Assembly: GCA_903923345.1 (NCBI GenBank)
Contig: CAIXXI010000475.1
Coordinates: forward strand, 1-38,761
DNA length: 38,761 bases
Direction of reading: 5' to 3'
Source of the DNA: an uncultured Burkholderiales bacterium
Lineage (GTDB): Bacteria > Pseudomonadota > Gammaproteobacteria > Burkholderiales > Burkholderiaceae_E
Shown here: positions 14,400 through 32,409 of the stretch, piece by piece
How positions within the stretch are numbered: the stretch's first letter is position 1
Layout of the letters: each line of letters opens with the position of its first letter
Position numbers and translations under genes: made by a program
Notes under the pieces: model-generated
Database searches by the model: none
What the model saw: only the letters and a program-made list of their open reading frames with translations
What the model was told of the DNA's origin: nothing

Positions 14400-14573
14400 A
14401 TGAAAAACCTTAAAGCTGCTTTTGATGCGTTTCTGAACGATGAGTCGGGTGCCTCGGCTGTTGAGTATGGGCTGATTGTGGCTTTGATTGCCGCAGTTGT
14501 GGTGGTGGGCGTAACGAACCTGGGCACCAAAATCAACGGCGTTTTCACTGGCGTCACCAGCAAGCTTCCGTGA
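14400..14573 (+). CDS. flp: Flp/Fap-type major pilin (57 aa)
   Basis: Absent from the ORF track, probably because it is short. Translation: MKNLKAAFDAFLNDESGASAVEYGLIVALIAAVVVVGVTNLGTKINGVFTGVTSKLP; Flp prepilin site G|ASAVEYGL; preceded by AGGAG. Confidence 0.95.
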   Translation: MKNLKAAFDAFLNDESGASAVEYGLIVALIAAVVVVGVTNLGTKINGVFTGVTSKLP

Positions 14574-14737: not shown

Positions 14738-15265
14738 ATGACACTGACCTTTGCTGTGCTGGGGATCCTTTTGTCCTTCGCAGCCTATACAGACTTGAGA
14801 TTCCGCCGCATCCCCAACGCGCTGGTCGCCATGGGGCTGTGCGCAGCGCTGGCTGTGGTCGGCCTCGGCTGGTCGCACCTGACGCTGGGTCAATGCATGC
14901 TGGGCACACTCACCGGTCTGCTGCTGTTTCTCCCGCTCTACATGATGGGCGCAGTCGGCGCGGGCGACGCCAAATTGATGGCGGTTGTCGGTGCCTTTCT
15001 GGGTACTCAAGCAGTGGCCTGGGTCGCGGTGTACACCGCGCTCATCGGCGGCGTCATGGCTCTGATCACCGTGATCGCGCTGGGCAACGGAAAGCAGACC
15101 GCACAGGGCATCTGGGCGTATCTGGGCGCGCTGCGGATTCGTTTTTCAGGCGTGGGCGCGCCCACGCCAGCGTTTGTGCCGTCAACCACCGCACGCATGC
15201 CTTATGCGCTGGCGATCGGCGCGGGGGCAATGAGCTGGTTCGCAATCGGCCCGCTTGTTCCTTAA
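14738..15265 (+). CDS. tadV: Prepilin peptidase, CpaA/TadV family
   Basis: 175 aa membrane protein; 'AAYTDLRFRRIPNALVAMGL' and 'GAVGAGDAKLMAVVGAFLG' contain the two A24-type aspartate motifs (D-x-R/K-x-R and GxGDxK). Confidence 0.9.
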   Translation: MTLTFAVLGILLSFAAYTDLRFRRIPNALVAMGLCAALAVVGLGWSHLTLGQCMLGTLTGLLLFLPLYMMGAVGAGDAKLMAVVGAFLGTQAVAWVAVYTALIGGVMALITVIALGNGKQTAQGIWAYLGALRIRFSGVGAPTPAFVPSTTARMPYALAIGAGAMSWFAIGPLVP

Positions 15266-15301: not shown

Positions 15302-16207
15302 ATGCGTGGCAGTAAGACCGTGTTGATGCTGGGCTCGGCACTCCTCTTCGGTGGGGCAGCCGCCTACCTCGCAGTCGATTGGATCAACTCGCAAGTCAGT
15401 CATCAGGTGGCGGGCCAGTCGAACGTACCCCTGCGCAAGGTGGCCATTGCTGCGGCCGATTTACGCGCAGGCAAGGAGCTTGTGACTGCCGACCTGACCA
15501 TCGTGCAGTGGCCTGCGTCAACCCTTCCTGATGGGGCCGTGACCGACGCGGCTGAACTGGTCGGTCGCGTGCTGCGAAACAGCGTGGCTAAAGGCGAGCC
15601 CCTGAACGAAAGCCGACTGGCTGCCAAAGGCGCTCGAGGCGGCATTGCGTCACTCATTGCACCGGGGAAGCGCGGGATTTCAATCTCGGTGAACGATGCA
15701 GTCGGCATGGCTTCGTACGCGCTGGAAGGCAGCTTCGTCGACATCATCGTGAACTCCGCGGATGCGGTGGAAGGTGATCGTCAACGCAGCATGTCAAAGA
15801 TTGTGCTTGAGCGCGTGCTGGTGCTGCGAACCGCACAGGCGGCTCAGGGCGAAGGACGCATCGGCGCTGTCACCCTCGAAGTAACACCGGCTGAAGCCGA
15901 AACACTTGATCTCGCGCGCAGCGTGGGGACCCTGTCTCTTGCGCTGCGCAGTGACTCTGAAGGCGAGCAAGTCAGGACTAAGGGCGCAACGAAAGAGTCG
16001 CTCTTTGGCACGAATTTGAAGCCTGCCCCGGTACCGGTCATTCAACCGGTCATCCCACCGGTGGCTGCCGTGTCATTGCCTGCCGTGCCACGGCAGGCCG
16101 TGGTCAGAGAGGTGGTGCGCATGGAGCCGGCGTTAGCGAGGCCTTCGCCTGGCAAAACCTGTGTGGATGCGCTGATCGGCAATGAGCGCCGCAGCGAATG
16201 TTTCTGA
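15302..16207 (+). CDS. cpaB: Flp pilus assembly protein CpaB/RcpC
   Basis: Signal-anchor N-terminus, SAF-like 'VPLRKVAIAAADLRAGKELVTADLTIVQWP' and 'GKRGISISVNDAVGMASYALEGSFVDIIVN'; position in the tad cluster. Confidence 0.9.
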   Translation: MRGSKTVLMLGSALLFGGAAAYLAVDWINSQVSHQVAGQSNVPLRKVAIAAADLRAGKELVTADLTIVQWPASTLPDGAVTDAAELVGRVLRNSVAKGEPLNESRLAAKGARGGIASLIAPGKRGISISVNDAVGMASYALEGSFVDIIVNSADAVEGDRQRSMSKIVLERVLVLRTAQAAQGEGRIGAVTLEVTPAEAETLDLARSVGTLSLALRSDSEGEQVRTKGATKESLFGTNLKPAPVPVIQPVIPPVAAVSLPAVPRQAVVREVVRMEPALARPSPGKTCVDALIGNERRSECF

Positions 16208-16226
16208 TCTCAATTCAAGGGTGACG

Positions 16227-17906
16227 ATGATGAGGAATTCAGGGGCTGAAACCCTGGGAGTGCGCACTGCCTGGATGCAACGCCTGACCCTGCTCGGCTG
16301 TGTGCTCGGCGCATGCGGCACGGCGGTCAGCCATGCCCAGGGGACGGGTGCGGGCCCCGTGGGCAATCGGCCGGGCCAAGCGGCCACTGCAGTGCGCGCC
16401 GAACCCAATGCGGCTGCAATGACCGAATCGCAAGCAGCAGGCTTTGGGCTGCAAGACATGGGTGCAGCACCATCGTGCGTGGGCGGTTTGCCCAGGCCGA
16501 TCGCGGTGCGAATGAATGGTGGCAAGTCAACGCTGGTGGATTTGCCCGAGCCGATTGTCAGGCGCACGGTGGGTGACCCAAGGGTGATCGAGAGCCGGAT
16601 GGTGTCGGAGAAAACGCTGTATCTGGCCAGCGGCCGGATTGGATCGACCAATGTGATTTTGCAGGGCAAGAGCGGGCGCTGCATGTTGCTGGACGTGGTG
16701 GTCAGCATTGACACGGATGCGGTGCAGTCCAAACTCGCTGAATTGCTGCCGCGCGAAAAGGACCTGCGGGTGGTAGCGGCCGGCGACAGCCTGATTTTGG
16801 TGGGCGTGGTGTCCGACGCGATTGCGGTGGAGCAGGCGGTGGCGATCACAAATGCCTACCTTCGAACGGGCATGCAGGCCGGGTTCACCGGACAAGGGGC
16901 TCAGGGTGCCGCCGGGACGCCCGGCGTCAGCAACATCATGCAAACCGCAATCGCAGGGGGTGCGCCGCTGCTGGCGCGGGTCATCAACATGCTGAGCGTG
17001 GCCTCGCCGCAGCAGGTGATGCTGGAGGTGAAGATTGCCGAGGTGTCCAAGACCTTGCTGGATCAGCTCGGGGTCAACCTCGCTGGGGTCGCCACACGGG
17101 GCAACGTGACCTACTCGCTTGTCAGCAACCTGGTGGCGAGTGCGCTCGCGGGCAGCCTGACAGTGTCCGACGCAAAGGGCAACAGCCTGTCAATCCAGGC
17201 CCAGAAGACCGACGGTCTGGTGCGGATACTGGCAGAGCCCAACATCATGGCGATCAGCGGCCAGGAGGGCAGCTTCCTGGCCGGCGGCAAGATCCTGATC
17301 CCGGTGGCACAAGGTGCGGCGACGGGTTTACCGGCAGTTTCGCTGGAGGAGCGCGAATACGGTGTGGGTCTGAAATTCAGCCCGACAGTTCTGGGCGATG
17401 GGCGCATCAACCTGAGGGTGGCGCCGGAAGTCTCGGAGCTTTCCAAGTCCGGGGTGAGCCTCTCGACCGGAACGTTCTCCTCGACAACGCTGCCGCTGAT
17501 CACCACGCGTCGAGCGTCCACGACAGTGCAGCTTTTCGATGGTCAGAGCTTCGCGATTGGTGGCCTGATCCGCAGCAGCGGGGCAGCGACCGTAAACGCC
17601 TTGCCGGTGCTCGGTGAGTTGCCCGTGCTGGGCGCCTTGTTTCGCAGCACGCAGTTTCAGGAAGACAAGAGCGAGCTGGTGTTCATCGTGACGCCACGCC
17701 TGATCAAGCCGCTGCCGCCTGAGTACCCCTTGCCCACGGACCGGGTGGGGCTGCCCGATCGGCGCCAGTTGATGCTCGATGGTCGACTGGACAGTGCACA
17801 GGACCTTTCTCGCACGCCGCTGCCTGTGCCTGTGCAGCCGACCCCATCACCCGTGTTGCCCGTGCCTGGAGCGCCCAGTCGCACGATGGGCTTTGAAATC
17901 AAATGA
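16227..17906 (+). CDS. cpaC: Type II/III-like secretin, CpaC/RcpA
   Basis: BON-like N-terminal part; 'VMLEVKIAEVSKTLLDQLGVNL', 'YGVGLKFSPTVLGDGRINLRVAPEVSEL', 'ITTRRASTTVQLFDGQSFAIGGLI', 'LPVLGELPVLGALFRSTQFQEDKSELVFIVTPRLI' are secretin motifs. Confidence 0.93.
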   Translation: MMRNSGAETLGVRTAWMQRLTLLGCVLGACGTAVSHAQGTGAGPVGNRPGQAATAVRAEPNAAAMTESQAAGFGLQDMGAAPSCVGGLPRPIAVRMNGGKSTLVDLPEPIVRRTVGDPRVIESRMVSEKTLYLASGRIGSTNVILQGKSGRCMLLDVVVSIDTDAVQSKLAELLPREKDLRVVAAGDSLILVGVVSDAIAVEQAVAITNAYLRTGMQAGFTGQGAQGAAGTPGVSNIMQTAIAGGAPLLARVINMLSVASPQQVMLEVKIAEVSKTLLDQLGVNLAGVATRGNVTYSLVSNLVASALAGSLTVSDAKGNSLSIQAQKTDGLVRILAEPNIMAISGQEGSFLAGGKILIPVAQGAATGLPAVSLEEREYGVGLKFSPTVLGDGRINLRVAPEVSELSKSGVSLSTGTFSSTTLPLITTRRASTTVQLFDGQSFAIGGLIRSSGAATVNALPVLGELPVLGALFRSTQFQEDKSELVFIVTPRLIKPLPPEYPLPTDRVGLPDRRQLMLDGRLDSAQDLSRTPLPVPVQPTPSPVLPVPGAPSRTMGFEIK

Positions 17907-18208: not shown

Positions 18209-18246
18209 GCGCGCCACAGCCCTCAGGTCTTCGCGGAGTCAACACC

Positions 18247-19425
18247 ATGAGCACTCAAGAGCCGCTCTCAGCTTTTATCCTGGCACCTGATCCTGCCGCG
18301 CTCGAATCGATGCGTGCCATGACAATGTCGCTCGAGGGCGTCACCCTTGCTGCAACAGCCACCGGGTCGGTGTCAGACGCGGACAAGCACCTTCGATCGC
18401 ACCCAAGCGACCTGCTGCTGGTCGCGTGTAACCCGGATGATCCAGCTCAGGCCGATGCATTGAGCAGCCTGAGCGCCCAGCATCCCAGATTGGACATGGT
18501 CCTGTTTGTCGCTGAACTCAGCAGCGCGACACTGCAGTCGGCTTTGCGTATCGGTGCACGTGAAGTCATCGCGCTCAATGGCTCAGGCACAGAGTTGCAA
18601 ACCGCGATCGGACGCATTCAATTCAGGCAACAGGCAACGCGCTCGCATCGTGGCCGAATGCTGAGCTTCGTCTCATGCAAAGGAGGCAGTGGTGCCACCT
18701 TCATCACGGCGAACCTTGCATATTCGCTGGCGAGCCTGACCGACAAGCGCGTGCTGCTGATCGATCTGAATCTGCAATTTGGCGACGCCATCTTGTACGT
18801 CTCCGATACCCGACCATCCGTCACGATTGCCGATCTGGTGGGTGATGTGCAGCGACTGGACAGCGCACTGCTCAAAGCATCCGTCGTTCAGATCCTGCCG
18901 AATTTCTGGCTGCTGCCAGCACCCACCGACCCTGCCAGCGCAGCAGACCTGCAAGCCCAGGATATCGGCAAGCTGCTGCGCTTTGCCAAGACCCAGGCCG
19001 ACCTGGTGCTGATCGATCTGGGCCGAAAGCTGGACGCAGGTGCTCTGGAGGCACTGGACCTGTCCGACTCCGTCTTCCTGGTGGTCCAGCAGACCTTGCC
19101 GTATATCCGCGATGCACGTCGCATGCTGGATCTGTTCCGCAGCCTGGGCTACAGCACTGACAAGGTCAAACCGATCTTGAGTCGATTCAACAGGCAAGCA
19201 GACATCACCACCCAAGACATCGAAGGCGCGCTTGGCTCGGCGCTGTTCGCCCATGTACCCAATGACTACAAGGTGGCTTCTGCAGCAGTGAATCAGGGCG
19301 TGCCGGTGCATAAGCTTGCCCCGAACAGCCAGGTGGCACGAGGACTGAACGAATTTGCCGCGAAGCTTGGAGCCCCACCCCAGCGCGACGCCTCGTGGCT
19401 ACGGCGCGTACTCAAGCACGCCTGA
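18247..19425 (+). CDS. tadZ: Pilus assembly protein CpaE/TadZ (receiver-like N-terminus plus MinD-like ATPase)
   Basis: Start trimmed to MSTQEPLSAFILAPDPAAL; 'LSFVSCKGGSGATFITANLAYSLA' deviant Walker A, 'RVLLIDLNLQFGDAILYV', 'ADLVLIDLGRKLD'. Confidence 0.9.
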   Translation: MSTQEPLSAFILAPDPAALESMRAMTMSLEGVTLAATATGSVSDADKHLRSHPSDLLLVACNPDDPAQADALSSLSAQHPRLDMVLFVAELSSATLQSALRIGAREVIALNGSGTELQTAIGRIQFRQQATRSHRGRMLSFVSCKGGSGATFITANLAYSLASLTDKRVLLIDLNLQFGDAILYVSDTRPSVTIADLVGDVQRLDSALLKASVVQILPNFWLLPAPTDPASAADLQAQDIGKLLRFAKTQADLVLIDLGRKLDAGALEALDLSDSVFLVVQQTLPYIRDARRMLDLFRSLGYSTDKVKPILSRFNRQADITTQDIEGALGSALFAHVPNDYKVASAAVNQGVPVHKLAPNSQVARGLNEFAAKLGAPPQRDASWLRRVLKHA

Positions 19426-19449: not shown

Positions 19450-20814
19450 ATGTCATTAAGAGAGCGACTTCAAGCGATCGATGCCGCCCCTCGGCCTGCC
19501 CCTGCCGGAGTATTTCGCGAGGAGCCCGAGATCGCTGCGGCACGAGCACCCAGCGATCTCAAGCAGCGGGTGCACCAGGAGTTGCTGGACCGTGTCGATC
19601 TGGCGCGCCTGCGCAGCCTGACGTCAAAGGCCACGCGCGATGAGGTCCGGATCCAGGTGGATCAAATTCTCGAAAGCACGGGGGTTCCACTCAATGATTC
19701 CGAGCGCCGCTCGCTGTTTGAGGATGTGCAGCACGAGATGTTCGGGTTCGGCCCACTGGAGCCGCTCCTGGCGGATGCGGGGGTGAACGACATCCTGGTG
19801 AATGGTCACGCGCATGTGTATGCCGAGCGCGCGGGCAAACTCGAGCGCACGACGGTTCGTTTTGACGATGACGACCATCTGATGAACGTGATCGAGCGCA
19901 TCGCGTCGCGGGTCGGGCGGAGGGTGGATGAGTCCAGCCCGATGGTCGATGCTCGCCTGCCCGATGGCTCGAGGGTGAACGCGATCATCCCGCCGCTGGC
20001 TCTGGACGGTCCGGTCTTATCGATCAGGAAGTTCTCCAAGGTGCCGCTGCGCATGGAGGACATCGTGGCGCGCAAGTCGCTGCCACCGCCAATGGCTGCG
20101 TTTTTGCAGGCGGTGGTGACCGGCAAGATGAACATGGTGATCTCCGGGGGCACCGGCAGCGGCAAGACGACGCTGCTGAACATCCTGTCGTCCTTCATTC
20201 CGGATGACGAGCGGATCGTCACGATCGAGGATGCGGCCGAGTTGCAGTTGCAACAATCGCATGTGGTCAGGCTGGAGACGCGTCCGCCGAACTTCGAGGG
20301 CAAGGGCGAGGTGAATCAGCGTGCGCTGGTGCGCAACGCACTACGGATGCGTCCGGACCGAATCATCCTGGGCGAAGTACGGGGTGCCGAAGCATTCGAC
20401 ATGCTGCAGGCGATGAACTCCGGGCATGAGGGGTCTATTGCGACAGTGCACTCGAATTCACCGCGAGATGCCATTGGCCGGATCGAGTCGATGTTGAGCA
20501 TGAGCGATGGGGGCATCCCGATCAAAGCGATGCGTCAGCAGATTGCCTCGGCGATTTCTTACATCGTGCAAGTGTCAAGGCTGAGCGATGGCAAGCGCAA
20601 GGTGATCAGCGTTCAGGAAATCACTGGGCTCGAAGGCGAGACCGTCGCGATGCATGAAATCTGGGGCTACAAGCAAACGGGTGTGAGCCAGACCGGGGAG
20701 GTTGAAGGGTATTTCGCCGCGACCGGGATCCGACCACGCACGCTGGATCGCATGCAAAGCGCAGGGCTTTCGCTGGGCGCCGAGATGTTCGATTCAGGCA
20801 AACGTTTCGCGTGA
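19450..20814 (+). CDS. tadA: Secretion ATPase CpaF/TadA
   Basis: '[23 protein letters not shown]', '[53 protein letters not shown]', '[43 protein letters not shown]'. Confidence 0.96.
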
Positions 20815-20821
20815 GTTGACG

Positions 20822-21805
20822 ATGAGTCCAACCGTTCAGATCGTATTGATTGCTGTGCTGAGCTTTGGCAGCGTGGCGATCCTGGCGCAGCTGGGGCTGA
20901 GCTGGTGGCAAAGACACCAGACCGTCGGCGCACGCAGGTTGCGAGGGCGCATTGCGCGGGCAAGTCGCTCGCAGGCTGAGACGCTCAGTGATGACAGCTC
21001 GGGTGCACCGATCACTACCGGCCTTCAAAACGGGATCAATGCGCTGCTGAGTCGAATGAACCTGACCCGTTCACTTGCAGCGTCCCTGGGCCAGGCCGGT
21101 CTGGCCTGGAGCCCCGCTCGTCTCATGCTGATCAGCGCAGGCTGTGCCATCAGCTGCCTCGTGTTGAGCCTCATCGCACAAGCCGGTGTGGCAACCGCGC
21201 TGGTTTGTGCGGTGGTTGGAGCGCTCGCACCCTTTGCCTATGTCGATCGCAAACGGTCAACGCGCTTGCGCGCCCTTGAGCGTCAGTTGCCTGACGTGCT
21301 TGAGGTGATCGGTCGGGCGATGCGCTCGGGGTATTCGTTTTCGGGTGCACTGAAGGTGGTCGGCGAAGAGATGCCAGCGCCCATTGGCCCGGAGTTCGCG
21401 CGCACCCAGGATGAGATCAGCTTTGGCATTCCAGTGAAAGACGCGCTGCAGAACCTGCTGAACCGCGTGCCGAGCGACAACCTGCGCTACATGGTGGTCG
21501 CCACGCTGGTGCAACGCGAAACCGGCGGAAACCTCGCCGAAATCTTCGCCAAGATCGCGCACCTGATGCGCGAGCGTATTGCCTTACAGGGGCAAATTCG
21601 GGTGTTGTCGGCGGATGGGCGGGTATCGGCATGGATCTTGTGTCTGTTGCCAGTCCTCGGTGCCCTGACCATGTTCTTCATTAACCGCCCTTACATCTCG
21701 CGGCTTTGGCTGTCACCAGACGGCCATTCCTTGCTGATGCTGAGCGCCGTAATGATGCTGACCGGCATCGTATGGATGCGTCGCGTGATTCGCATTCGGA
21801 TCTGA
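20822..21805 (+). CDS. tadB: Type II secretion F-family protein TadB
   Basis: Start trimmed to MSPTVQIVLIAVL; 'LERQLPDVLEVIGRAMRSGYSFSGALKVVGEEMPAPIGPEFARTQDEISFGIPVKDAL' T2SSF motif. Confidence 0.92.
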   Translation: MSPTVQIVLIAVLSFGSVAILAQLGLSWWQRHQTVGARRLRGRIARASRSQAETLSDDSSGAPITTGLQNGINALLSRMNLTRSLAASLGQAGLAWSPARLMLISAGCAISCLVLSLIAQAGVATALVCAVVGALAPFAYVDRKRSTRLRALERQLPDVLEVIGRAMRSGYSFSGALKVVGEEMPAPIGPEFARTQDEISFGIPVKDALQNLLNRVPSDNLRYMVVATLVQRETGGNLAEIFAKIAHLMRERIALQGQIRVLSADGRVSAWILCLLPVLGALTMFFINRPYISRLWLSPDGHSLLMLSAVMMLTGIVWMRRVIRIRI

Positions 21806-21835
21806 CCGGATTCAGGACTCAAGCACAAACAGATC

Positions 21836-22783
21836 ATGACAGCACACATGCCTTCAATGCTCGGATTCGCAGCGCTGGTGTTTGCAAGCGCAGTCCTGAC
21901 CTTCGCCCTGATCTGGCAAAACCTCAGGCGCCGAAGCCTCAGGCGGCGTTTGCAGCAGGTCGCATCCGATATACCGACCGCCCAGTCAGAAACCCAGGGA
22001 TGGATCGAATCTGTCGCCCGGACGACCGGTCGATTGTCGAAGTACTCAAGCTCGAATGATGCCGATTCGGCCTCGGCACTGAAGCTGAAATTGATTCGAG
22101 CAGGATGGAGAAATCGCTCTACGCCGGTCGCCTTTTTCGGCATCAAGACCCTGTTGGTCCTGGTTTTTCCCGTGCTGGTCTTGGCCGTGTGTCTGTTGCT
22201 TCCAAATCAGCCGAGCGCCATGACGATTGTCCTGCTTTCCTTGATCGCTGCATCGCTGGGCTTGTATCTGCCCGACATGGCACTCAATGCGGCCATTCAA
22301 AGCCGGCGGCAACATCTGTTGGAGGAGTTTCCGGATGCGCTCGATCTGCTGACGGTATGCATCGAGGCCGGCTTGAGCCTGGAAGCCGCCCTGGTGCGCG
22401 TGGCCGACGAGATGGCGATGAGCCATCCGCTGTTGTCCAGCGAATTGAATCTGGTGGTTCTGGAGATGCGATCCGGTCGACCTCGTGATGAGGCTATGCG
22501 CAACCTCGCTCGCCGCAACGACCTGGAAGCCATCGAATCTTTTGTGGCCACGCTGACCCAAGCTGAGAAATTTGGCGGCAGTATCGGCGACGCGATCCGT
22601 GTGTACAGCGAGACCTTGCGAACCCAACGTCGCCAAGGGGCCGAGGAGCAGGCTGCCAAGATTGGCACCAAGCTGACGATTCCGCTGGTGCTGTGCATCT
22701 TGCCGGTGCTGTTCATGGTGATGGCAGGCCCGGCGATGCTCACATTGGTTGAAGTGTTTTCTTCCGGCCTGGGAGCACAGTGA
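21836..22783 (+). CDS. tadC: Type II secretion F-family protein TadC
   Basis: 'FPDALDLLTVCIEAGLSLEAALVRVADEMAMSHPLLSSEL' and 'IGTKLTIPLVLCILPVLFMVMAGPAMLTL'; follows tadB. Confidence 0.92.
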   Translation: MTAHMPSMLGFAALVFASAVLTFALIWQNLRRRSLRRRLQQVASDIPTAQSETQGWIESVARTTGRLSKYSSSNDADSASALKLKLIRAGWRNRSTPVAFFGIKTLLVLVFPVLVLAVCLLLPNQPSAMTIVLLSLIAASLGLYLPDMALNAAIQSRRQHLLEEFPDALDLLTVCIEAGLSLEAALVRVADEMAMSHPLLSSELNLVVLEMRSGRPRDEAMRNLARRNDLEAIESFVATLTQAEKFGGSIGDAIRVYSETLRTQRRQGAEEQAAKIGTKLTIPLVLCILPVLFMVMAGPAMLTLVEVFSSGLGAQ

Positions 22784-23940
22784 TGAGCATAAGCCGTGTG
22801 CTTGGTGCCCGGGTGTCAGACCCCTCTCAAATAGGGGCACGCGCTCGGCATTTGACGGGTGTGTCGATTGTCGTGTGTCTGGCGGGGTGTGCGATCGGAT
22901 CAGTCCAGTCGCTGGGTACGCCAACGAGTCTGGCAATGGACAGCGAGGGCGTGCGGTCGGCGTCCGAATCCATGACGACTGTTGAGCAGCCCAGACTGGC
23001 CGAGCGACACTACGATCTCGCGCGCTACTGGCTCAGGCAGGAGCGCCTTCAAGCAGCCATGCAGGAACTGGATCATGCCTTGGTGGCTGATCCGCAGCAT
23101 GTGGAGGCGCTCAATGCGCGTGCGGTCCTGCGTGCACAGTACGCCGATCTGAGCGGCGCGCAGACCGATCTGCGCTCGGCTCTATCGATTGATCCGAGTC
23201 GCCCTCATCTGCATTTCAATATGGGGCTGGTCCATCGACTGCGTCAGGACGAGGCTGCCGCCCGTGACGCATTTCGTCACACGCTGTCGCTTGACCCGAA
23301 TCACGAAGGAGCCAAGCTTGTACTGGCCCTGGACGAAGAAGCCAGATGGTCATCACCACCTGAATCAACGCATGACGCCTTTGTTCGCGTGACTGCTGCG
23401 CAGGCAAGCGCTGCTGCGACGCCCGAACACCGTCTGATCGTTCAGCCTGAAAACGACCAGGCGAATACGACAGCCACCCGCAGGGCATCGACATCCGATC
23501 GGCCTCGGGCGCAGGCCGGTTCCACTACCAGCGGCGCTGCTGCGGTGGCGTCTGGTGAGCCGCGAATCGACCTTGCAAACGGGAATGGCGCAGAAGGATT
23601 AGCGCGCGCCTTGCGGGCCCAACTGAGCGAGACGGGATTGCCCGTTCGACGGGTCCGGAACTGGGTGAATTTCGATCAATACCAGACCCGAATCTATTAC
23701 CGACGCGGTCACGAGGAAACGGTACTGAAAATTTTCGACGCCCTGCCGGTCGAGTCGTCAATCACCGTGCTTTCGCCTGCCAGCCTGGGCCGACGGGATG
23801 TACTGGTCGTTCTGGGGCAGGACTTGAAAGACTACGCGTTTAACTTCAGGCGAAATCAAACGCTGTCGGATTCCGGCCGCGAGCCAACCGTCTTGCCGGT
23901 ACATGCGAAGTCCGGCGGGGCATCGATTCAGTCCCTTTGA
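22780..23940 (+). CDS. tadD: TadD-like TPR lipoprotein with a C-terminal LytR_C-like domain
   Basis: Lipobox-like 'VCLAGC'; TPR-like 'AALNARAVLRAQYADLSGAQTDLRSALSIDPSRPHLHFNMGLVHRLRQDEAAARDAFRHTLSLDPNHEGAK' (first residues approximate); C-terminal 'RIDLANGNGAEGLARALRAQLSETGLPVRRVRNWVNFDQYQTRIYYRRGHEE...VLVVLGQDL' resembles LytR_C. Confidence 0.85.
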   Translation: MMSISRVLGARVSDPSQIGARARHLTGVSIVVCLAGCAIGSVQSLGTPTSLAMDSEGVRSASESMTTVEQPRLAERHYDLARYWLRQERLQAAMQELDHALVADPQHVEALNARAVLRAQYADLSGAQTDLRSALSIDPSRPHLHFNMGLVHRLRQDEAAARDAFRHTLSLDPNHEGAKLVLALDEEARWSSPPESTHDAFVRVTAAQASAAATPEHRLIVQPENDQANTTATRRASTSDRPRAQAGSTTSGAAAVASGEPRIDLANGNGAEGLARALRAQLSETGLPVRRVRNWVNFDQYQTRIYYRRGHEETVLKIFDALPVESSITVLSPASLGRRDVLVVLGQDLKDYAFNFRRNQTLSDSGREPTVLPVHAKSGGASIQSL

Positions 23941-23962: not shown

Positions 23963-24430
23963 ATGTGGTCTGTCAGACGATTCCAGCGCGGCGCAGTGGC
24001 GGTTGAATTCGCGCTGGTGGCGCCCTTATTGTTGCTGCTGTTGCTCGGCATTTTTCAGTTCGGTTGGCTTTTCAACAACTATCTGATGCTGACCCAGGCG
24101 ACCTCCGCGGGCTCACGCCTGTTCTCGGTTCAGCGCGGTTATCCGAGCCCCTGTACAACGGCCTATGACGCTGTGAAGTCAGCCGCCCCCGGACTGAATG
24201 CCGCGAGCATTTCCATGTCCTGCTCAGTCAATAACGGAGCCGTTTGCAGCGCGTGTCAGGCAGGCTCCTGTTCAAGCGATGCGAGCTGCCAGACCCAGTT
24301 GACCGCCAACGCGGGCAACCCGGCCAGCGTGTCGGTGGCCTATGCGATGAGTCCGCTGGTGGAGTCAGCGTTTGCTGCGCTGAAAATTCCCAGCACCCTG
24401 ACCCTCACCGCAACGGATCGGGTGCAATGA
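23963..24430 (+). CDS. tadE: TadE-family minor pseudopilin, cysteine-rich
   Basis: 'QRGAVAVEFALVAPLLLLLLLGIFQFGWLFNNYLMLTQATSAGSRLFSV' TadE-like motif; ATGA overlap with the next gene. Confidence 0.9.
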   Translation: MWSVRRFQRGAVAVEFALVAPLLLLLLLGIFQFGWLFNNYLMLTQATSAGSRLFSVQRGYPSPCTTAYDAVKSAAPGLNAASISMSCSVNNGAVCSACQAGSCSSDASCQTQLTANAGNPASVSVAYAMSPLVESAFAALKIPSTLTLTATDRVQ

Positions 24431-25908
24431 AACCTCGCCTGTCCAAACCGCAGCAATCTGCACGGGCTCATCAGGGCGGGGCCGTTGCGGTGATGGTGGC
24501 CGCCTCCCTGGTGGCCTTGTTCGGCTTCGTGGCACTGGTCGTCGATATCGGCCGAGTCAATCAAGTTCGGCGCGCGCTGCAGGCCTCGACCGACTCCGCT
24601 GCGCTGGCAGGTGGCACTGAACTGATCAATGGCGCTGCATCCGCGGAGACGGTGGCCTTGCGCTACGGCGCCGGCGGATTCAACGGGGTTCAAGGGCTCG
24701 CCTCAACGGCCAGCGTCATCCCGAAATGCTTGAGTTCACTGACCGGTCTGGGTGTGCCGTGCTACGGGACACCCGCCTACAACGCGGTGTCGGTGACTCA
24801 GAGTGTCCAGGTGCCATTGACCTTCGGTGCGATTTTCAACCAGACCTCATGGACGGTGTCGACATCAAGCATGGCCAGCATCGGTGGCGGATTCAACGTC
24901 AAGCCGATGAATGTCATGCTGGTGCTCGACACCACAGGATCGATGAACAACAACGATCCTGCATGCGGCAAGACCCGAATCGCCTGCGCACTGGAAGGGG
25001 TTCAAACCCTTCTCAAGCTGCTCAAGCCCACGGCGGCGAATGTGGGGCTGATGGTGTACCCGCCGGTTGCATCGGCTGCTGAAGCGGCCAAGAACTTTGA
25101 CTGCAATGGCAACAGCAACCCGGCCATTTCGCCATACGGCAACCCCGATGCAGTGTATTCGATCATTGGTTCAAACAATGGCCTGACCAACGATTTCCTG
25201 TCATCGAACAACTCGACCACCTTGTCCACGACATCAAACCTGAACAAGGCCGTGGGTGCGGGAGGCGGATCTTGCGCGCCCTTGAAGGCCATTGGCGGAG
25301 AAGGGACCTACTTCGCCGATGCGATCCGTACCGCGCAGGCCATGCTCAATGCCCTACCCAACAAGGAGTCGACACAGGAAGTCATCGTGCTCTTGAGCGA
25401 TGGCGATGCATCGGCCTCCATCTCCAGTCTCGTGCAAACCTGGTTGAGCGGCAAGACCTACGAGCCGGGTGATCAGGTCAGCGTTGGCGCGGTCTACTAC
25501 AGCTACACGGGCAGCAACTCGGCCTTGGCGAGCGCAGTCAACAAGCCTGGATCGGGCGCGAACTGGACGAGCTACTGGACGAGGCTATCTGGCGCATCGG
25601 CCACCAAAGCAGCCAATCAATGTGCGGCCGCCGTGGCTGCTGCTGCGCAAGCCAAGGCCGCGGGCACACGGGTGTATTCGATCGGCTATTCACCCAGCAC
25701 CAGCACGTCTGGCAGTTGCTCGACTGATTCGCCGAGGATTTCCGCTTGTCAAACGATGCGGGCCATCGCTTCGGACGCCAGCACCTTCTACTCCACGACG
25801 ACCAATTCCAATTGCCAGCCTGGCACCGCCCGGTCGCTGAACAGCATTTTTTACTCGCTCGCCCAGACCTTCAACAGTTCCCGACTTCTCCCGATTGACG
25901 CCCAATAA
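24427..25908 (+). CDS. tadG: TadG-like protein: TadE/TadG N-terminus plus VWA domain with an inserted module
   Basis: Start at the ATGA overlap (MKPRLSKPQQ); 'GGAVAVMVAASLVALFGFVALVVDIGRVNQVRRALQASTDSAALAGG'; VWA MIDAS-like 'MNVMLVLDTTGSMNNND' and 'EVIVLLSDGDAS'. Confidence 0.9.
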   Translation: MKPRLSKPQQSARAHQGGAVAVMVAASLVALFGFVALVVDIGRVNQVRRALQASTDSAALAGGTELINGAASAETVALRYGAGGFNGVQGLASTASVIPKCLSSLTGLGVPCYGTPAYNAVSVTQSVQVPLTFGAIFNQTSWTVSTSSMASIGGGFNVKPMNVMLVLDTTGSMNNNDPACGKTRIACALEGVQTLLKLLKPTAANVGLMVYPPVASAAEAAKNFDCNGNSNPAISPYGNPDAVYSIIGSNNGLTNDFLSSNNSTTLSTTSNLNKAVGAGGGSCAPLKAIGGEGTYFADAIRTAQAMLNALPNKESTQEVIVLLSDGDASASISSLVQTWLSGKTYEPGDQVSVGAVYYSYTGSNSALASAVNKPGSGANWTSYWTRLSGASATKAANQCAAAVAAAAQAKAAGTRVYSIGYSPSTSTSGSCSTDSPRISACQTMRAIASDASTFYSTTTNSNCQPGTARSLNSIFYSLAQTFNSSRLLPIDAQ

Positions 25909-27543: not shown

Positions 27544-30500
27544 ATGTCCCGATCGCTCGAGGTCTGGCTGCAGCTGCATGGCCTGTCTCATCTCGCCGAG
27601 GTCCTGACCGCCGCATCGGTTGATCTGGACATCCTGGACGCGCTGTCCGAGCCCGACCTCGAACGCCTGGGCGTGAGCCTCGGAAACCGCAAGCGTTTAC
27701 TGCGCGCGGTGGCCTTGAGCCTGCCCGGCGCCACCACCAGCGCCTCGGCAGAGCGGCGGATGATCACCGTGATGTTCGTCGATCTGGTGGACTTCACCGC
27801 CATGAGCCGCGCGCTTGATCCAGAGGATCTGCGCGAAGCGACCCGCACCTTTCAATCGGTCTGCGCCGATGCGGTAAAACAGTTCGATGGCAGCATCGCG
27901 CAATACTTGGGCGACGGCATCCTCGCGTACTTCGGCTATCCGCGTGCCCATGAAGACGATGCCGAACGTGCGGTGCGGGCTGCCTTCAATGTCATCGGCC
28001 GCGTCAGCGGTTTGCTGGCTTGGCATGGCATCCCAATAGCTGTTCGCGTGGGCATCGCGACAGGCTTGGTCGTGGTGGGCGATGTGGTCAGCGCTGAACT
28101 GGTCGCGGGGCAGGCGGCTATTGGCGAAGCGCCGAATGTTGCAGCCCGGCTGCAAGCCATGGCCGAACCGGGTGCGATTGTCATTGCACCGACCACTGCA
28201 CGACTACTCGGCCAGCGCTTTCGGCTTGAGGCCTTACCGGCCATATCGCTCAAGGGACTGCTTTCTCCGATGACGGCCTATCGGGTGTGGAGTGAGCAGG
28301 CCGTGGTCAGCCGGTTTGAATCGCGGCCTGCCCGGGGGCGGTCTGCACTCGTTGGGCGCGAGTCGGAGTTCTCTGCCCTGTGGCGGGCCTGGCAGGCTGC
28401 AGCCGTCGGTCGGGGCAGCCTGTATCTCGTGCAAGGCGAGGCTGGCGTGGGCAAGTCGCGGTTGTGCGCAGACCTTGCAGACAGACTGGAGGGCATCGAG
28501 CATGCGCGGGTGACCTTGCAGTGCTCTCCGCATCACACCGCCACACCGATGTATCCGCTGATCCGATACATCGAACAGGCAGCCGGCCTTCAGGGGCTTG
28601 ATGACGGCCCTGAGGAATCAACCAAGCCGACGCGATTGACGCGACTGCGCGCCTGGCTGGAACGAACCCTCTCAGACCAGCCTGCCGAACTGGAGCGCGC
28701 GACCGCAGCCCTGGCAGCCTTGCTGTCGATTGCGAACGCACCACCCCTGCCAGGCCCCCCCGCGCTGCGGTGGCTCACCACGCGGCACTGCCTGAGAACG
28801 CTTCTGCTGAGCGCTGCAGCCACGCGTCCATTGCTGCTGGTGGTCGAGGACCTGCATTGGGTGGACCCAAACACCGCAGCCTGGCTGAAGGAATTGGCGC
28901 AGCCGCTCACCGCTGCTCGCGCGCTGGTCTTGATGACCGCTCGGCCCGAGTACCCATCGGACTGGGTTGCAAACGTCATGGCCCTGGACCGACTGGCCCC
29001 TGAGGCTGCACATCTGCTGCTGGAAAACACGCTTGAAGGCCGGGAATTGGCGCCAGGCATGGTCGATCGCATCTTGAGCAAGTGCGACGGCATCCCGCTG
29101 TACATCGAGGAAATCACGCAATCGGTCCTGGAGGCGGTGGACTCGACTCAAACCGCTACGCTGTCGATTCCCGAGACCCTGCAGGAGTCGCTCACTGCAC
29201 GCCTGGATCGCTTGGGCAGTGCACGCGAAGTGCTTCAGGTGGGGGCGGTCATCGGGCGCGAATTCACCAAGCCCCTGCTGGCTGCAGTCATGGGTTGGAA
29301 CGACGATCGGCTTGACGCCGCGCTGACCTGGGTCAGCCGATCAGGCCTGGTTCAGGTCATACACGCGAACTCCAGCCCCCAATACCTGTTCCGGCACGCC
29401 CTGATCCAGGAGAGCGCCTATTCAAGCTTGCTGCTGGCTGACCGCAAGCGGATCCACGGCAAATTGGCGCAGATCATTGAGACCCAGTTTGCTGAACTCA
29501 TTCGCCTCACCCCGGCGGTGCATGCCCGGCACCTCACTGCGGCCGGTCAGGTCGACGCGGCAATCGACGCCTGGTTCCAGGCAGGCATGCAGGAGGCGGC
29601 TGTGGCGGCCAGCGGTGAGGCGGTCCAGCACTTCGAGCAGGCACTCGCCCTGGTGCGAGCGCTGCACGCCGATGCTCCCGACACGCCCGCAGCCGCACGC
29701 CGGGAACTCGACATCCTGATCAAGCTCGGCCCGGTGGTGATGATGGCCCGAGGCACGGGTTCCGAGCACAGCGCTCGAACCTACGAGCGCGCACGTGACC
29801 TGGTGAACCGTGTGGGCAATGAGGCCGAGCGCTTTGTCGTGGCGTTTTCGCTGTGGTATGCCTATGAGAACCAATGCCGGCACGAACTCACCGACTCCAT
29901 GATCGATGAGGTCGACCGCCTGGCTGATGCGTCGCAGGACACGCGCTTTTTCGTTCAGGCGCGTCATGCACGCTGGACCACTGCACTCACCCGCGGCCTG
30001 TTTACCCAATGCCTGCAGAGCACGCAGGACGGAATCGACACCTTTAAAGCTGAAGACCGGCCCTTCCACATCCAGACCTTTGGTGGCCATGACCCCTACC
30101 TGTGTGCACTCAGCAATCGGCTCTGTGCGCTGTGGTACAGCGGCGACCCTGACGGCGCCTATCGCATGGCCGAGACCGCACTGACGGAGTCGGCCGCGCT
30201 GCAGCACCTGCCCACGCGCATCATCAGCACCTTTGCTGCCGTGTCGCTCTACCGGAACGCACTCGACCCGCAACGCATCCGGGCAGTGGCCGACCCTGTG
30301 GTCGAACTGTGCAACCGCGCGGGCATTGCGTACTACGGCGGCATTCTCACGATCTTTTGCGGCTGGGCCGATGCTGCCCTGACGAACGACCCCGCCTCAG
30401 TCGATCTGATGATCGAGGCATTGAAGCGGTTTGAGTCCACCGGATCGCGCTTGCGGGTGGGTTTGTTCGAAACCCTCATTGCTGATGCCTGCCTGATGAC

Positions 30501-30864
30501 GGGCCGCCTTCCTGAAGGGACCGCGCGCATCGCGTCGGCGCAACGCAGCATCGAGCAATACGGTGAATACGCCTTTCGCACGTTTGCGCTGGTTACCGAA
30601 GGCGGCGTGCACGCCGCGCAGGGCGACTTGGCTGCGGCTGAACGCAGTTACCTGAAGGCGATCGAGGTCGCACAGTCTCAACACGCCCTCGGTCTTGAGT
30701 TGCGCGCCACACGGCTGATGGCCGAGTTGCTGGGGCGCACGCAGCGTGCAGCCCAGGGACTTGCCTTGCTGTCGCCGCTCATTGAGCGCTTTCCGGCCAA
30801 GCTGGACACGGTGGACTTGAACCTGGCACGCGCGTGGATCCTGGGTGCGTCACTGGCATCATGA
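27544..30864 (+). CDS. SAM domain, class III adenylate/guanylate cyclase, AAA-type ATPase and TPR-rich multidomain protein
   Basis: 1106 aa; N-terminal SAM-like 'VWLQLHGLSHLAEVLTAASVDLDILDALSEPDLERLGVSLGNRKRLLRAV'; cyclase 'TVMFVDLVDFTAMSR', 'IAQYLGDGILAYFGYPRAHEDDAERAVRAA', 'GEAPNVAARLQ'; Walker A 'GEAGVGKSRL', Walker B-like 'LLLVVEDLHWVD'; C-terminal helical repeats. Confidence 0.88.
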   Translation: MSRSLEVWLQLHGLSHLAEVLTAASVDLDILDALSEPDLERLGVSLGNRKRLLRAVALSLPGATTSASAERRMITVMFVDLVDFTAMSRALDPEDLREATRTFQSVCADAVKQFDGSIAQYLGDGILAYFGYPRAHEDDAERAVRAAFNVIGRVSGLLAWHGIPIAVRVGIATGLVVVGDVVSAELVAGQAAIGEAPNVAARLQAMAEPGAIVIAPTTARLLGQRFRLEALPAISLKGLLSPMTAYRVWSEQAVVSRFESRPARGRSALVGRESEFSALWRAWQAAAVGRGSLYLVQGEAGVGKSRLCADLADRLEGIEHARVTLQCSPHHTATPMYPLIRYIEQAAGLQGLDDGPEESTKPTRLTRLRAWLERTLSDQPAELERATAALAALLSIANAPPLPGPPALRWLTTRHCLRTLLLSAAATRPLLLVVEDLHWVDPNTAAWLKELAQPLTAARALVLMTARPEYPSDWVANVMALDRLAPEAAHLLLENTLEGRELAPGMVDRILSKCDGIPLYIEEITQSVLEAVDSTQTATLSIPETLQESLTARLDRLGSAREVLQVGAVIGREFTKPLLAAVMGWNDDRLDAALTWVSRSGLVQVIHANSSPQYLFRHALIQESAYSSLLLADRKRIHGKLAQIIETQFAELIRLTPAVHARHLTAAGQVDAAIDAWFQAGMQEAAVAASGEAVQHFEQALALVRALHADAPDTPAAARRELDILIKLGPVVMMARGTGSEHSARTYERARDLVNRVGNEAERFVVAFSLWYAYENQCRHELTDSMIDEVDRLADASQDTRFFVQARHARWTTALTRGLFTQCLQSTQDGIDTFKAEDRPFHIQTFGGHDPYLCALSNRLCALWYSGDPDGAYRMAETALTESAALQHLPTRIISTFAAVSLYRNALDPQRIRAVADPVVELCNRAGIAYYGGILTIFCGWADAALTNDPASVDLMIEALKRFESTGSRLRVGLFETLIADACLMTGRLPEGTARIASAQRSIEQYGEYAFRTFALVTEGGVHAAQGDLAAAERSYLKAIEVAQSQHALGLELRATRLMAELLGRTQRAAQGLALLSPLIERFPAKLDTVDLNLARAWILGASLAS

Positions 30865-30928: not shown

Positions 30929-32236
30929 TTACGCCTTGGCCCGCTTGCGCGTGACGCCCAATGCCCCGAATAGGCCAACAGCAAGCAGCCCCACCGTCCC
31001 TGAGACCGGCACATTGCCTTCGATGGTCTGAAGGATCGGGATCATCGTTCCGGTAAACGTTCCAGAACCACTTTGGGCGGCAAACTCTAATCCAGTAATA
31101 AATGCCGTCGGATTCATCGGATCGAGCATCGCCGAGGTTTCAATCCCGGTCACTTTGAAGCTGGCAAAACCCGCCGGGTTCCGGTTCAGGAAACTGAATC
31201 GCTCTCCACCATTGATCACGAGTTCGGTTCCGTCAGGCAATGTCAGCGTAAAGCGGTTATCACCAATCCCTGTAGGCAATAGCACCGAAGTGAAGTTTGG
31301 ATCGCCGGCACCGGTTTTGTAGTCATAGCCGACAGCCACATCCGGATCAATGAACACCGTACGCCCACCGACATTGGTGATATCGAATTGATAGGTCGGC
31401 GCTTGACCCGGTCCGCCCGGCACAACGCTCGGCAAAACCACGTTGCTGGGCTGATTGGGGTTGCTGCTAAGCGTGAAATCGAAGAACGATTTCGATCGAG
31501 ACAGGGTGTTGGAGACGCTGGCATCGTTAGCCAAATTGTTTCTCGTATCCACCAGTGCGATTTCGATGGAATATTGGCGCCCGAATTCAAGAGGCTTGCC
31601 GGCGACGGCGGATGGAACCTGAAAACTTCTTGTGTCGGCGGCCAATGCCTGACTCAAGATGATGTCGCTCAGCCCCGAACCACTCACTGTTCGGCCCGTG
31701 TCCCAGAGCTGAATGCGCTGAGCATCGAACACCGCACTCCCTGGCACCGTCCAGTTGAAAACCGGAGAGGAGCCGGTACCTGTGACGGTCATGTTTTGCA
31801 CAAATGGCATCACACTGGCGGCCGAAGCCGACGGCGTGTTGACTTGCCTGGTGTCCGCTCCATTCGAAAAAGTCAGCGTCCAGGGGCTGGTTTTGTCTGC
31901 GCTATACGCCGTGGAGGCGGACCAGAAATTGGGCGCGGTCGAAAAGGCATAGTGTGTCAGCGGGATGGTCGAGGCGCCCGTGTTGGCTGTCGCAGTCGTA
32001 CCCGCAGTTGAGTTGGGCCGCCCAGACTCAACACCACCCTGCAGCCTAAGTCCTGTGCTTTCCCCCACACTGTTGGCGCTGACATTGCCTAGCAGCAGAT
32101 AAGGGTCCGTGAGCGTCAGCGTTGCAGCGTGCGTGAACGCCGACCCACTCAACATCACCAAACCGAGCCCTAAGCTCTGGGCACTGAACGCCCTTGAAAC
32201 CGGAGACCCAAAAGATCGAAATAGCCGAAAGATCAT
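30929..32236 (-). CDS. Exported protein with a PEP-CTERM-like C-terminal sorting signal
   Basis: Start trimmed to MIFRLFRSFGSPVSRAFSAQSLGLGLVMLSGSAFTHAATLTLTDPYLL (signal peptide); C-terminus 'VPVSGTVGLLAVGLFGALGVTRKRAKA' is short motif, TM segment, basic tail. Confidence 0.75.
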   Translation of the reverse strand: MIFRLFRSFGSPVSRAFSAQSLGLGLVMLSGSAFTHAATLTLTDPYLLLGNVSANSVGESTGLRLQGGVESGRPNSTAGTTATANTGASTIPLTHYAFSTAPNFWSASTAYSADKTSPWTLTFSNGADTRQVNTPSASAASVMPFVQNMTVTGTGSSPVFNWTVPGSAVFDAQRIQLWDTGRTVSGSGLSDIILSQALAADTRSFQVPSAVAGKPLEFGRQYSIEIALVDTRNNLANDASVSNTLSRSKSFFDFTLSSNPNQPSNVVLPSVVPGGPGQAPTYQFDITNVGGRTVFIDPDVAVGYDYKTGAGDPNFTSVLLPTGIGDNRFTLTLPDGTELVINGGERFSFLNRNPAGFASFKVTGIETSAMLDPMNPTAFITGLEFAAQSGSGTFTGTMIPILQTIEGNVPVSGTVGLLAVGLFGALGVTRKRAKA

Positions 32237-32239
32237 GAG

Positions 32240-32264
32240 TGACCTCTGAAGATAGTGGAGGTCA
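32240..32264 (-). promoter_or_regulatory. Inverted repeat covering the ribosome-binding site of the PEP-CTERM-like gene
   Basis: Minus strand: TGACCTC-CACTATCTTCA-GAGGTCA-CTC-ATG; the 3' arm contains the likely Shine-Dalgarno GAGG. Confidence 0.5.
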
Positions 32265-32409
32265 ACGTAGTGCAATTTACATACCAGACACAATTTCTCT
32301 TGGCACTGCAACAGCTTGCGCGATGGATCGATCTGATAAGGGGTCGCAATGTAAAGCGAAGCGACTCATTCAGAAGTTGGTGCCCCGAGCGCTTTCCGGC
32401 AAAACACAC

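Follow-up and report, generated by a model that had tools for sequence, protein, structure and literature searches.

A TadG minor pilin with a CBM5/12-superfamily module of phage-tail subtype inserted in its VWA domain, from an uncultured Burkholderiales bacterium

The window analysed here, a whole stretch of 38,761 nucleotides, carries a complete tad/flp locus, recognised from Pfam searches of its genes, of which tadG is the last. On the plus strand, the gene for the major pilin, flp (14400-14573; Pfam Flp_Fap, E 3.9e-18), is followed by the prepilin peptidase gene tadV (14738-15265; Peptidase_A24), rcpC/cpaB (15302-16207; RcpC) and the secretin gene rcpA/cpaC (16182-17906; Secretin). The locus also holds a small lipoprotein-like open reading frame, and on the plus strand lie tadZ/cpaE (18220-19425; AAA_31, E 1.1e-10), the ATPase gene tadA/cpaF (19450-20814; T2SSE, E 7.6e-64), tadB and tadC, which encode the platform proteins (20822-22783; T2SSF), a gene for a tadD-like TPR protein (22780-23940; TPR_2, E 5.7e-10) and the minor pilin gene tadE (23963-24430; TadE, E 2.2e-16). 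No separate tadF was seen at the tad locus. Two other genes of the window were read by eye: positions 27544-30864 (plus strand) encode a 1106-aa protein with a SAM-like start and nucleotide-cyclase-like and AAA ATPase-like parts, and positions 30929-32311 (minus strand) encode a secreted protein of 460 aa that resembles exosortase-sorted proteins in its hydrophobic stretch at the C terminus and its basic tail.

The tadG gene (24427-25908, plus strand) is one open frame of 493 aa that overlaps the tadE stop codon by four bases (ATGA), and its product is minor pilin-like, with a pilin-like N terminus and a VWA domain. The hydrophobic Tad/TadG segment at residues 18-63 (24478-24615) matches Pfam Tad (PF13400, E 9e-10). 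The first part of the VWA domain, residues 160-337 (24904-25437), is defined by Pfam, by alignment with TadG-VWA relatives and by motif positions; Pfam matched the domain piecewise, upstream of the insert described below (VWA_2, E 2.8e-10; VWA at residues 287-337). The MIDAS residues, placed by motif and not by structure, are D168-T170-S172 (DTTGS), T294 and D325 (LSDGD). The PF13400 segment, the C-terminal VWA domain with MIDAS residues and the complete tad locus together identify the protein as a TadG-type VWA minor pilin. By alignment, a long region at about residues 213-291 (25063-25299) exceeds the length found in related TadG VWA domains, and it was modelled mostly with pLDDT below 50. 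This region separates the early VWA strands from the MIDAS Thr, contains two cysteines and is possibly another, first arm of the VWA domain. Close relatives of the whole protein are few, the best (E 1e-11) matching over the N-terminal third, and a scan of genome contigs gave an N-terminal match only.

Within the VWA domain, residues 338-387 (25438-25587, plus strand) form a module of the CBM5/12 superfamily and of phage-tail subtype, as judged from hidden Markov models of phage modules, BLASTP, AlphaFold2 (AF2) and Foldseek. An original prediction, made from the letters of the DNA, had described a carbohydrate-binding-like module here, starting at W339 (base 25441); by profile, the domain spans residues 338-387. 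The motif likeness that it proposed is well above chance by profile, but the first spacing is W-x5-Y and the W-x4-Y version was dropped. As a single sequence, the insert found little or nothing in Pfam, NCBIfam, PHROGs, the PDB (phmmer), phage sequences (tblastn) or viral contigs; its match to Pfam CBM_5_12 (PF02839) reached 10.8 bits (E 0.53 among 24,736 models), with a gathering cut-off of 26.2. The top PDB phmmer matches were antibodies, which were rejected as a chance compositional likeness. Since single-sequence searches were nearly blank, a profile route was needed.

Phage modules were gathered from public viral contigs by the motif W-x5-Y-x2-G-D-x-V-x6-Y, and a profile of 265 non-redundant modules, from which the insert was left out, scored 25.9 bits against the insert (E 5e-10), with shuffled controls at or below 9.4 bits. 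Across all 352 window frames of at least 60 aa the same profile scored the TadG frame only, the next best reaching 3.3 bits. This test is not fully independent because the insert satisfies the collecting motif, although other positions contribute to the score too. A second signature, PG-x-G-x-N-W-x-x-Y-W, was present in 115 viral stretches, nearly all with the consensus Y-x-C...HTS...(D)EPGxGANWxxYW. A profile of 44 phage modules of this type only, again without the insert, matched residues 338-387 with 35.5 bits (E 3.8e-13), and about 4,900 shuffles stayed at or below 11.2 bits. Both module sets were thus collected with motifs that the insert also satisfies, whereas the comparisons with Pfam, the PDB and known folds are free of that dependence. 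When 33 phage modules were aligned and searched individually, 31 matched Pfam CBM_5_12 (best 1.7e-10), and in the PDB the module profile matched the chitin-binding domain of chitinase A1 (ChiA1; 1ed7, E 4e-9) and chitin deacetylases (E 1e-9). Homology of the insert to the CBM5/12 superfamily is therefore reached through intermediates, the phage profile matching the insert as well as 1ed7 and the deacetylases. The insert is a small domain in its own right, belonging to the chitinase-A1/CBM5-12 superfamily.

Structure prediction points the same way. AF2 modelled the insert as a small separate beta domain, and not as an integral loop or strand of the VWA fold, with a mean pLDDT of 82 and about 90 in the core. 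In Foldseek comparisons with solved structures, nearly all of the best 50 matches to this model were chitin-binding domains or phage/injection-system proteins, with the baseplate protein of an Anabaena injection system, the binding domains of chitinases and deacetylases and the tail fibres of phages at the top. Foldseek probabilities to chitin-binding domains were 0.9-1.0 and E-values were modest (0.02-0.5), as expected for a module of just 50 residues. In a viral structure library the model matched phage tail and ChiA1_BD proteins. The predicted fold can be assigned firmly to the CBM5/12 (ChiA1) type. A discrete CBM5/12-like domain, with a fold common to chitinases and phage tail proteins, was what the original prediction had expected, and the significant matches of the phage-derived profiles and the separate modelled fold bear this out.

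The insert starts 13 residues past the MIDAS D325, in the beta4-alpha5 loop between strand beta4 and the following helix. When nine TadG-VWA proteins from its family are aligned with it, the insert falls after the strand that ends in SDG and before the next helix. The second part of the VWA domain, residues 388-484 (25588-25878), comprises helix alpha5, strand beta5 (RVYSIGYS) and the last helices, as indicated by alignment and by model secondary structure of low confidence. In the model of residues 156-493, the VWA domain was covered by one sequence only and is weak for that reason (mean pLDDT 53), and the order of elements is strand 161-169, module, helix 234-256 and strand 259-266 in the numbering of the segment. 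Among PDB entries, the VWA part of this model best matches SpaC, a VWA pilus adhesin (E 3.4e-4); RrgA and GBS104 rank below it. TadG-VWA homologues for structure alignment were sought in viral contigs and none was found there. With Pfam VWA_2/VWA matches before the insert, and VWA elements placed after it by alignment and model, the module does lie inside the VWA domain of TadG, as had been proposed. The same beta4-alpha5 site (SDGAPN ... CNVNKAARNM) holds another insert, about 80-95 aa long, in other TadG of the family (L002, L003, L004, L009, L010, L011, L015, L078 and L120), and the one tested had no Pfam match. The loop therefore tolerates cargo and is a variable site among related TadG of the family.

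The nearest relative found is a module in a phage tail protein (contig locus L544), with 44% identity over 52 aa; BLASTP of TadG against this protein gave E 1e-9, and the nearest named phage match to its module is annotated as a minor tail protein. Both host proteins that were tested fall in the tail-protein family phrog_376. The insert is closest to the phage-tail type of module and not to chitinases. It resembles the phage HTS...EPGxGANWxxYW modules (phrog_376; L544, L377 and L458 in IMG/VR) over its whole length, including the conserved W, Y, GD and PGxGxNWxxYW, and these modules likewise sit inside another domain. It differs from them in lacking both the HTS motif and the Cys that they conserve behind the strand Tyr, in two extra loop residues and in its carrier, which is TadG rather than a phage tail protein. 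In the phrog_376-type tail proteins of L544, L377 and L465, the module, which in some cases occurs twice, is embedded in another domain close to the N terminus. The literature examined apparently does not describe what it does in such proteins.

In characterised domains of the superfamily, ligand binding involves Trp687 of ChiA1 (PMC3701571), a Tyr-Trp pair and Y296 in CBM5 and, in CBM73, the surface aromatics W371, Y378 and W386, with Y351 and W390 as core residues (PMC8449059). The insert shares the fold and the core aromatic/hydrophobic pattern with the ChiA1 domain (CBM12, 1ed7), CBM5 and CBM73, but it has none of their ligand aromatics, except possibly W380. No aromatic is aligned in the loop that bears ChiA1 W687, CBM5 Y282-W283 and CBM73 W371/Y378. 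The only match, W380, aligns with CBM73 W386, and its spacing of four to W384 is that of W386 to W390; ChiA1 W696 can be aligned with either W380 or W384. The surface aromatics typical of chitin-binding CBM5/12/73 domains are thus missing from the insert, apart from this possible W380-W386 match. The ligand loop is also without an aromatic in 42 of the 44 phage modules of the same subtype, whereas 128 of the 265 general phage modules have one. Since homology is present but the ligand aromatics are missing, neither plain chitin nor cellulose is a predicted ligand of the module. The module belongs to the superfamily by homology and is not classed here as a functional CBM, and the earlier suggestion that it confers chitin or glycan adhesion is so far unsupported.

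Compared for presence of the module, none of the TadG homologues sampled carries it: searches of 74 family genomes, 399 from the order and 369 from the class, of plasmids, and of 399 genomes from the phylum, where signature matches were not read in frame, turned up no other case. A relaxed signature, P..G.[ND]W..YW, occurred in seven genomes of the order sample and, among those inspected, was module-like only in the window, the rest being chance-like frames. A PF02839 search within the family did not list this TadG and returned only tail-fibre-like and other proteins. In related genomes, two phage-like proteins, a collagen-like tail fibre (L118:1981, plus strand) and an RCC1-like repeat protein (L119:2557, minus strand), contain weak CBM5/12-type modules. 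The GC content of the insert (0.60-0.66) is similar to that of the remainder of tadG, and recent foreign DNA was rejected as an explanation on these grounds. The combination of TadG with a carbohydrate-binding module was not found in the open-access papers searched.

Several explanations of the insert can be weighed. That it is no more than a usual VWA loop resembling such modules by chance might be argued from the single-sequence Pfam score (10.8 against 26.2 bits) and from the PDB phmmer ranking of antibodies above All3316, but profile scores of 26-36 bits against at most 11 in shuffles, the BLASTP match with the tail protein of a phage (E 1e-9) and the confident separate fold refute this reading, which is scarcely credible. 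A true chitin- or cellulose-binding CBM, attaching the pilus to chitinous or plant surfaces, would fit the superfamily homology to the binding domains of ChiA1 and chitin deacetylases and the alignment of W380 with W386, one of the three surface aromatics of CBM73 (PMC8449059). This seems distinctly unlikely, given the lack of aromatics at the positions of ChiA1 W687, CBM5 Y282-W283 and CBM73 W371/Y378, and nearest relatives that are phage tail modules and not chitinases.

It is also conceivable, if rather doubtful, that the module itself binds no ligand and acts as a structural spacer or stability element, left behind passively after recombination with phage tail DNA. The phrog_376 tail proteins hold the module as a loop insert, so that in phages the subtype could be a spacer and not a binding domain; moreover, the loop accepts other inserts in relatives, and no related TadG among those sampled has the module. 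Against this, the module is intact, the conserved W, Y, GD and PGxGxNWxxYW have been kept and its GC content is like that of the rest of the gene, which suggests maintenance rather than recent arrival. An arm that senses rather than adheres, altering the transmission of force or contact through the VWA domain, would accord with the proposal that VWA minor pilins such as the Tad minor pilin CpaL are mechanosensors (PMC12607857), but nothing in the window ties the locus to a surface-response output, and this function is considered highly improbable.

The reading that we favour, and regard as somewhat probable, is that a phage-tail-subtype CBM5/12 domain in the beta4-alpha5 loop enlarges the VWA domain of TadG, forming an arm beside the MIDAS that modifies binding at the pilus tip. 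Against this reading weigh the single TadG known to carry the module, the low confidence of the modelled VWA part and the missing canonical ligand aromatics. Placed in this loop, after the MIDAS Asp of a TadG encoded in a tad locus, the module would be an accessory arm on the adhesive face of the VWA domain of a probable tip pilin. Together with TadE, TadG would act as cap or primer of the Flp (Tad) pilus that the locus produces, and the VWA domain would face outwards at the pilus end, as modelled for TadG/KilN tips (PMC12075869) and CpaL (PMC12607857); it is from such published models of other TadG/CpaL proteins that a tip position is suggested here. The 50-residue module would then stand exposed next to the MIDAS as a small rigid arm, probably with a role in ligand binding, and would widen or alter the contact of the pilus tip with its ligand.

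Parallels for such an arrangement exist. TadG/KilN tips with variable domains have been described (PMC12075869), and these complexes similarly contain a TadG-type minor pilin with a variable domain thought to be tip-exposed; their variable domains are C-terminal, however, and no CBM5/12 insert is described in the text examined. Caulobacter CpaL is likewise a Tad minor pilin with a MIDAS-bearing vWA domain split by a beta-rich insert (PMC12607857), but there the insert consists of two tandem domains and comes after the DxTxS motif and before the MIDAS Thr, whereas the TadG insert is of CBM5/12 type and follows the MIDAS Asp. In the pilus VWA adhesins PilB of Streptococcus sanguinis and RrgA of pneumococci the MIDAS is flanked by protruding arms, two in PilB, although these belong to different pili and the arms are not CBM5/12 modules (PMC8179133). 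Modular, tip-customised pilins are already known, and TadG with its CBM5/12 insert is a further variant.

A more specific and tentative idea, which we hold to be improbable as it stands, is that a receptor-recognition module of phage tails was taken into a pilus-tip adhesin, at a site filled with differing cargo, and that the tip recognises a surface molecule of other microbes in a phage-like manner. To our knowledge, the ligands of Tad pili are mostly unknown. A TadG with a recognisable and removable binding-type module at the adhesive face of its VWA domain offers a direct test of the customisation of Tad tips by domain swapping, and phage tails and pilus tips here use the same small module. 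On another contig (L090; contig C208 of G000), the same genome encodes a further TadG-like protein of Tad type, about 445 aa long.
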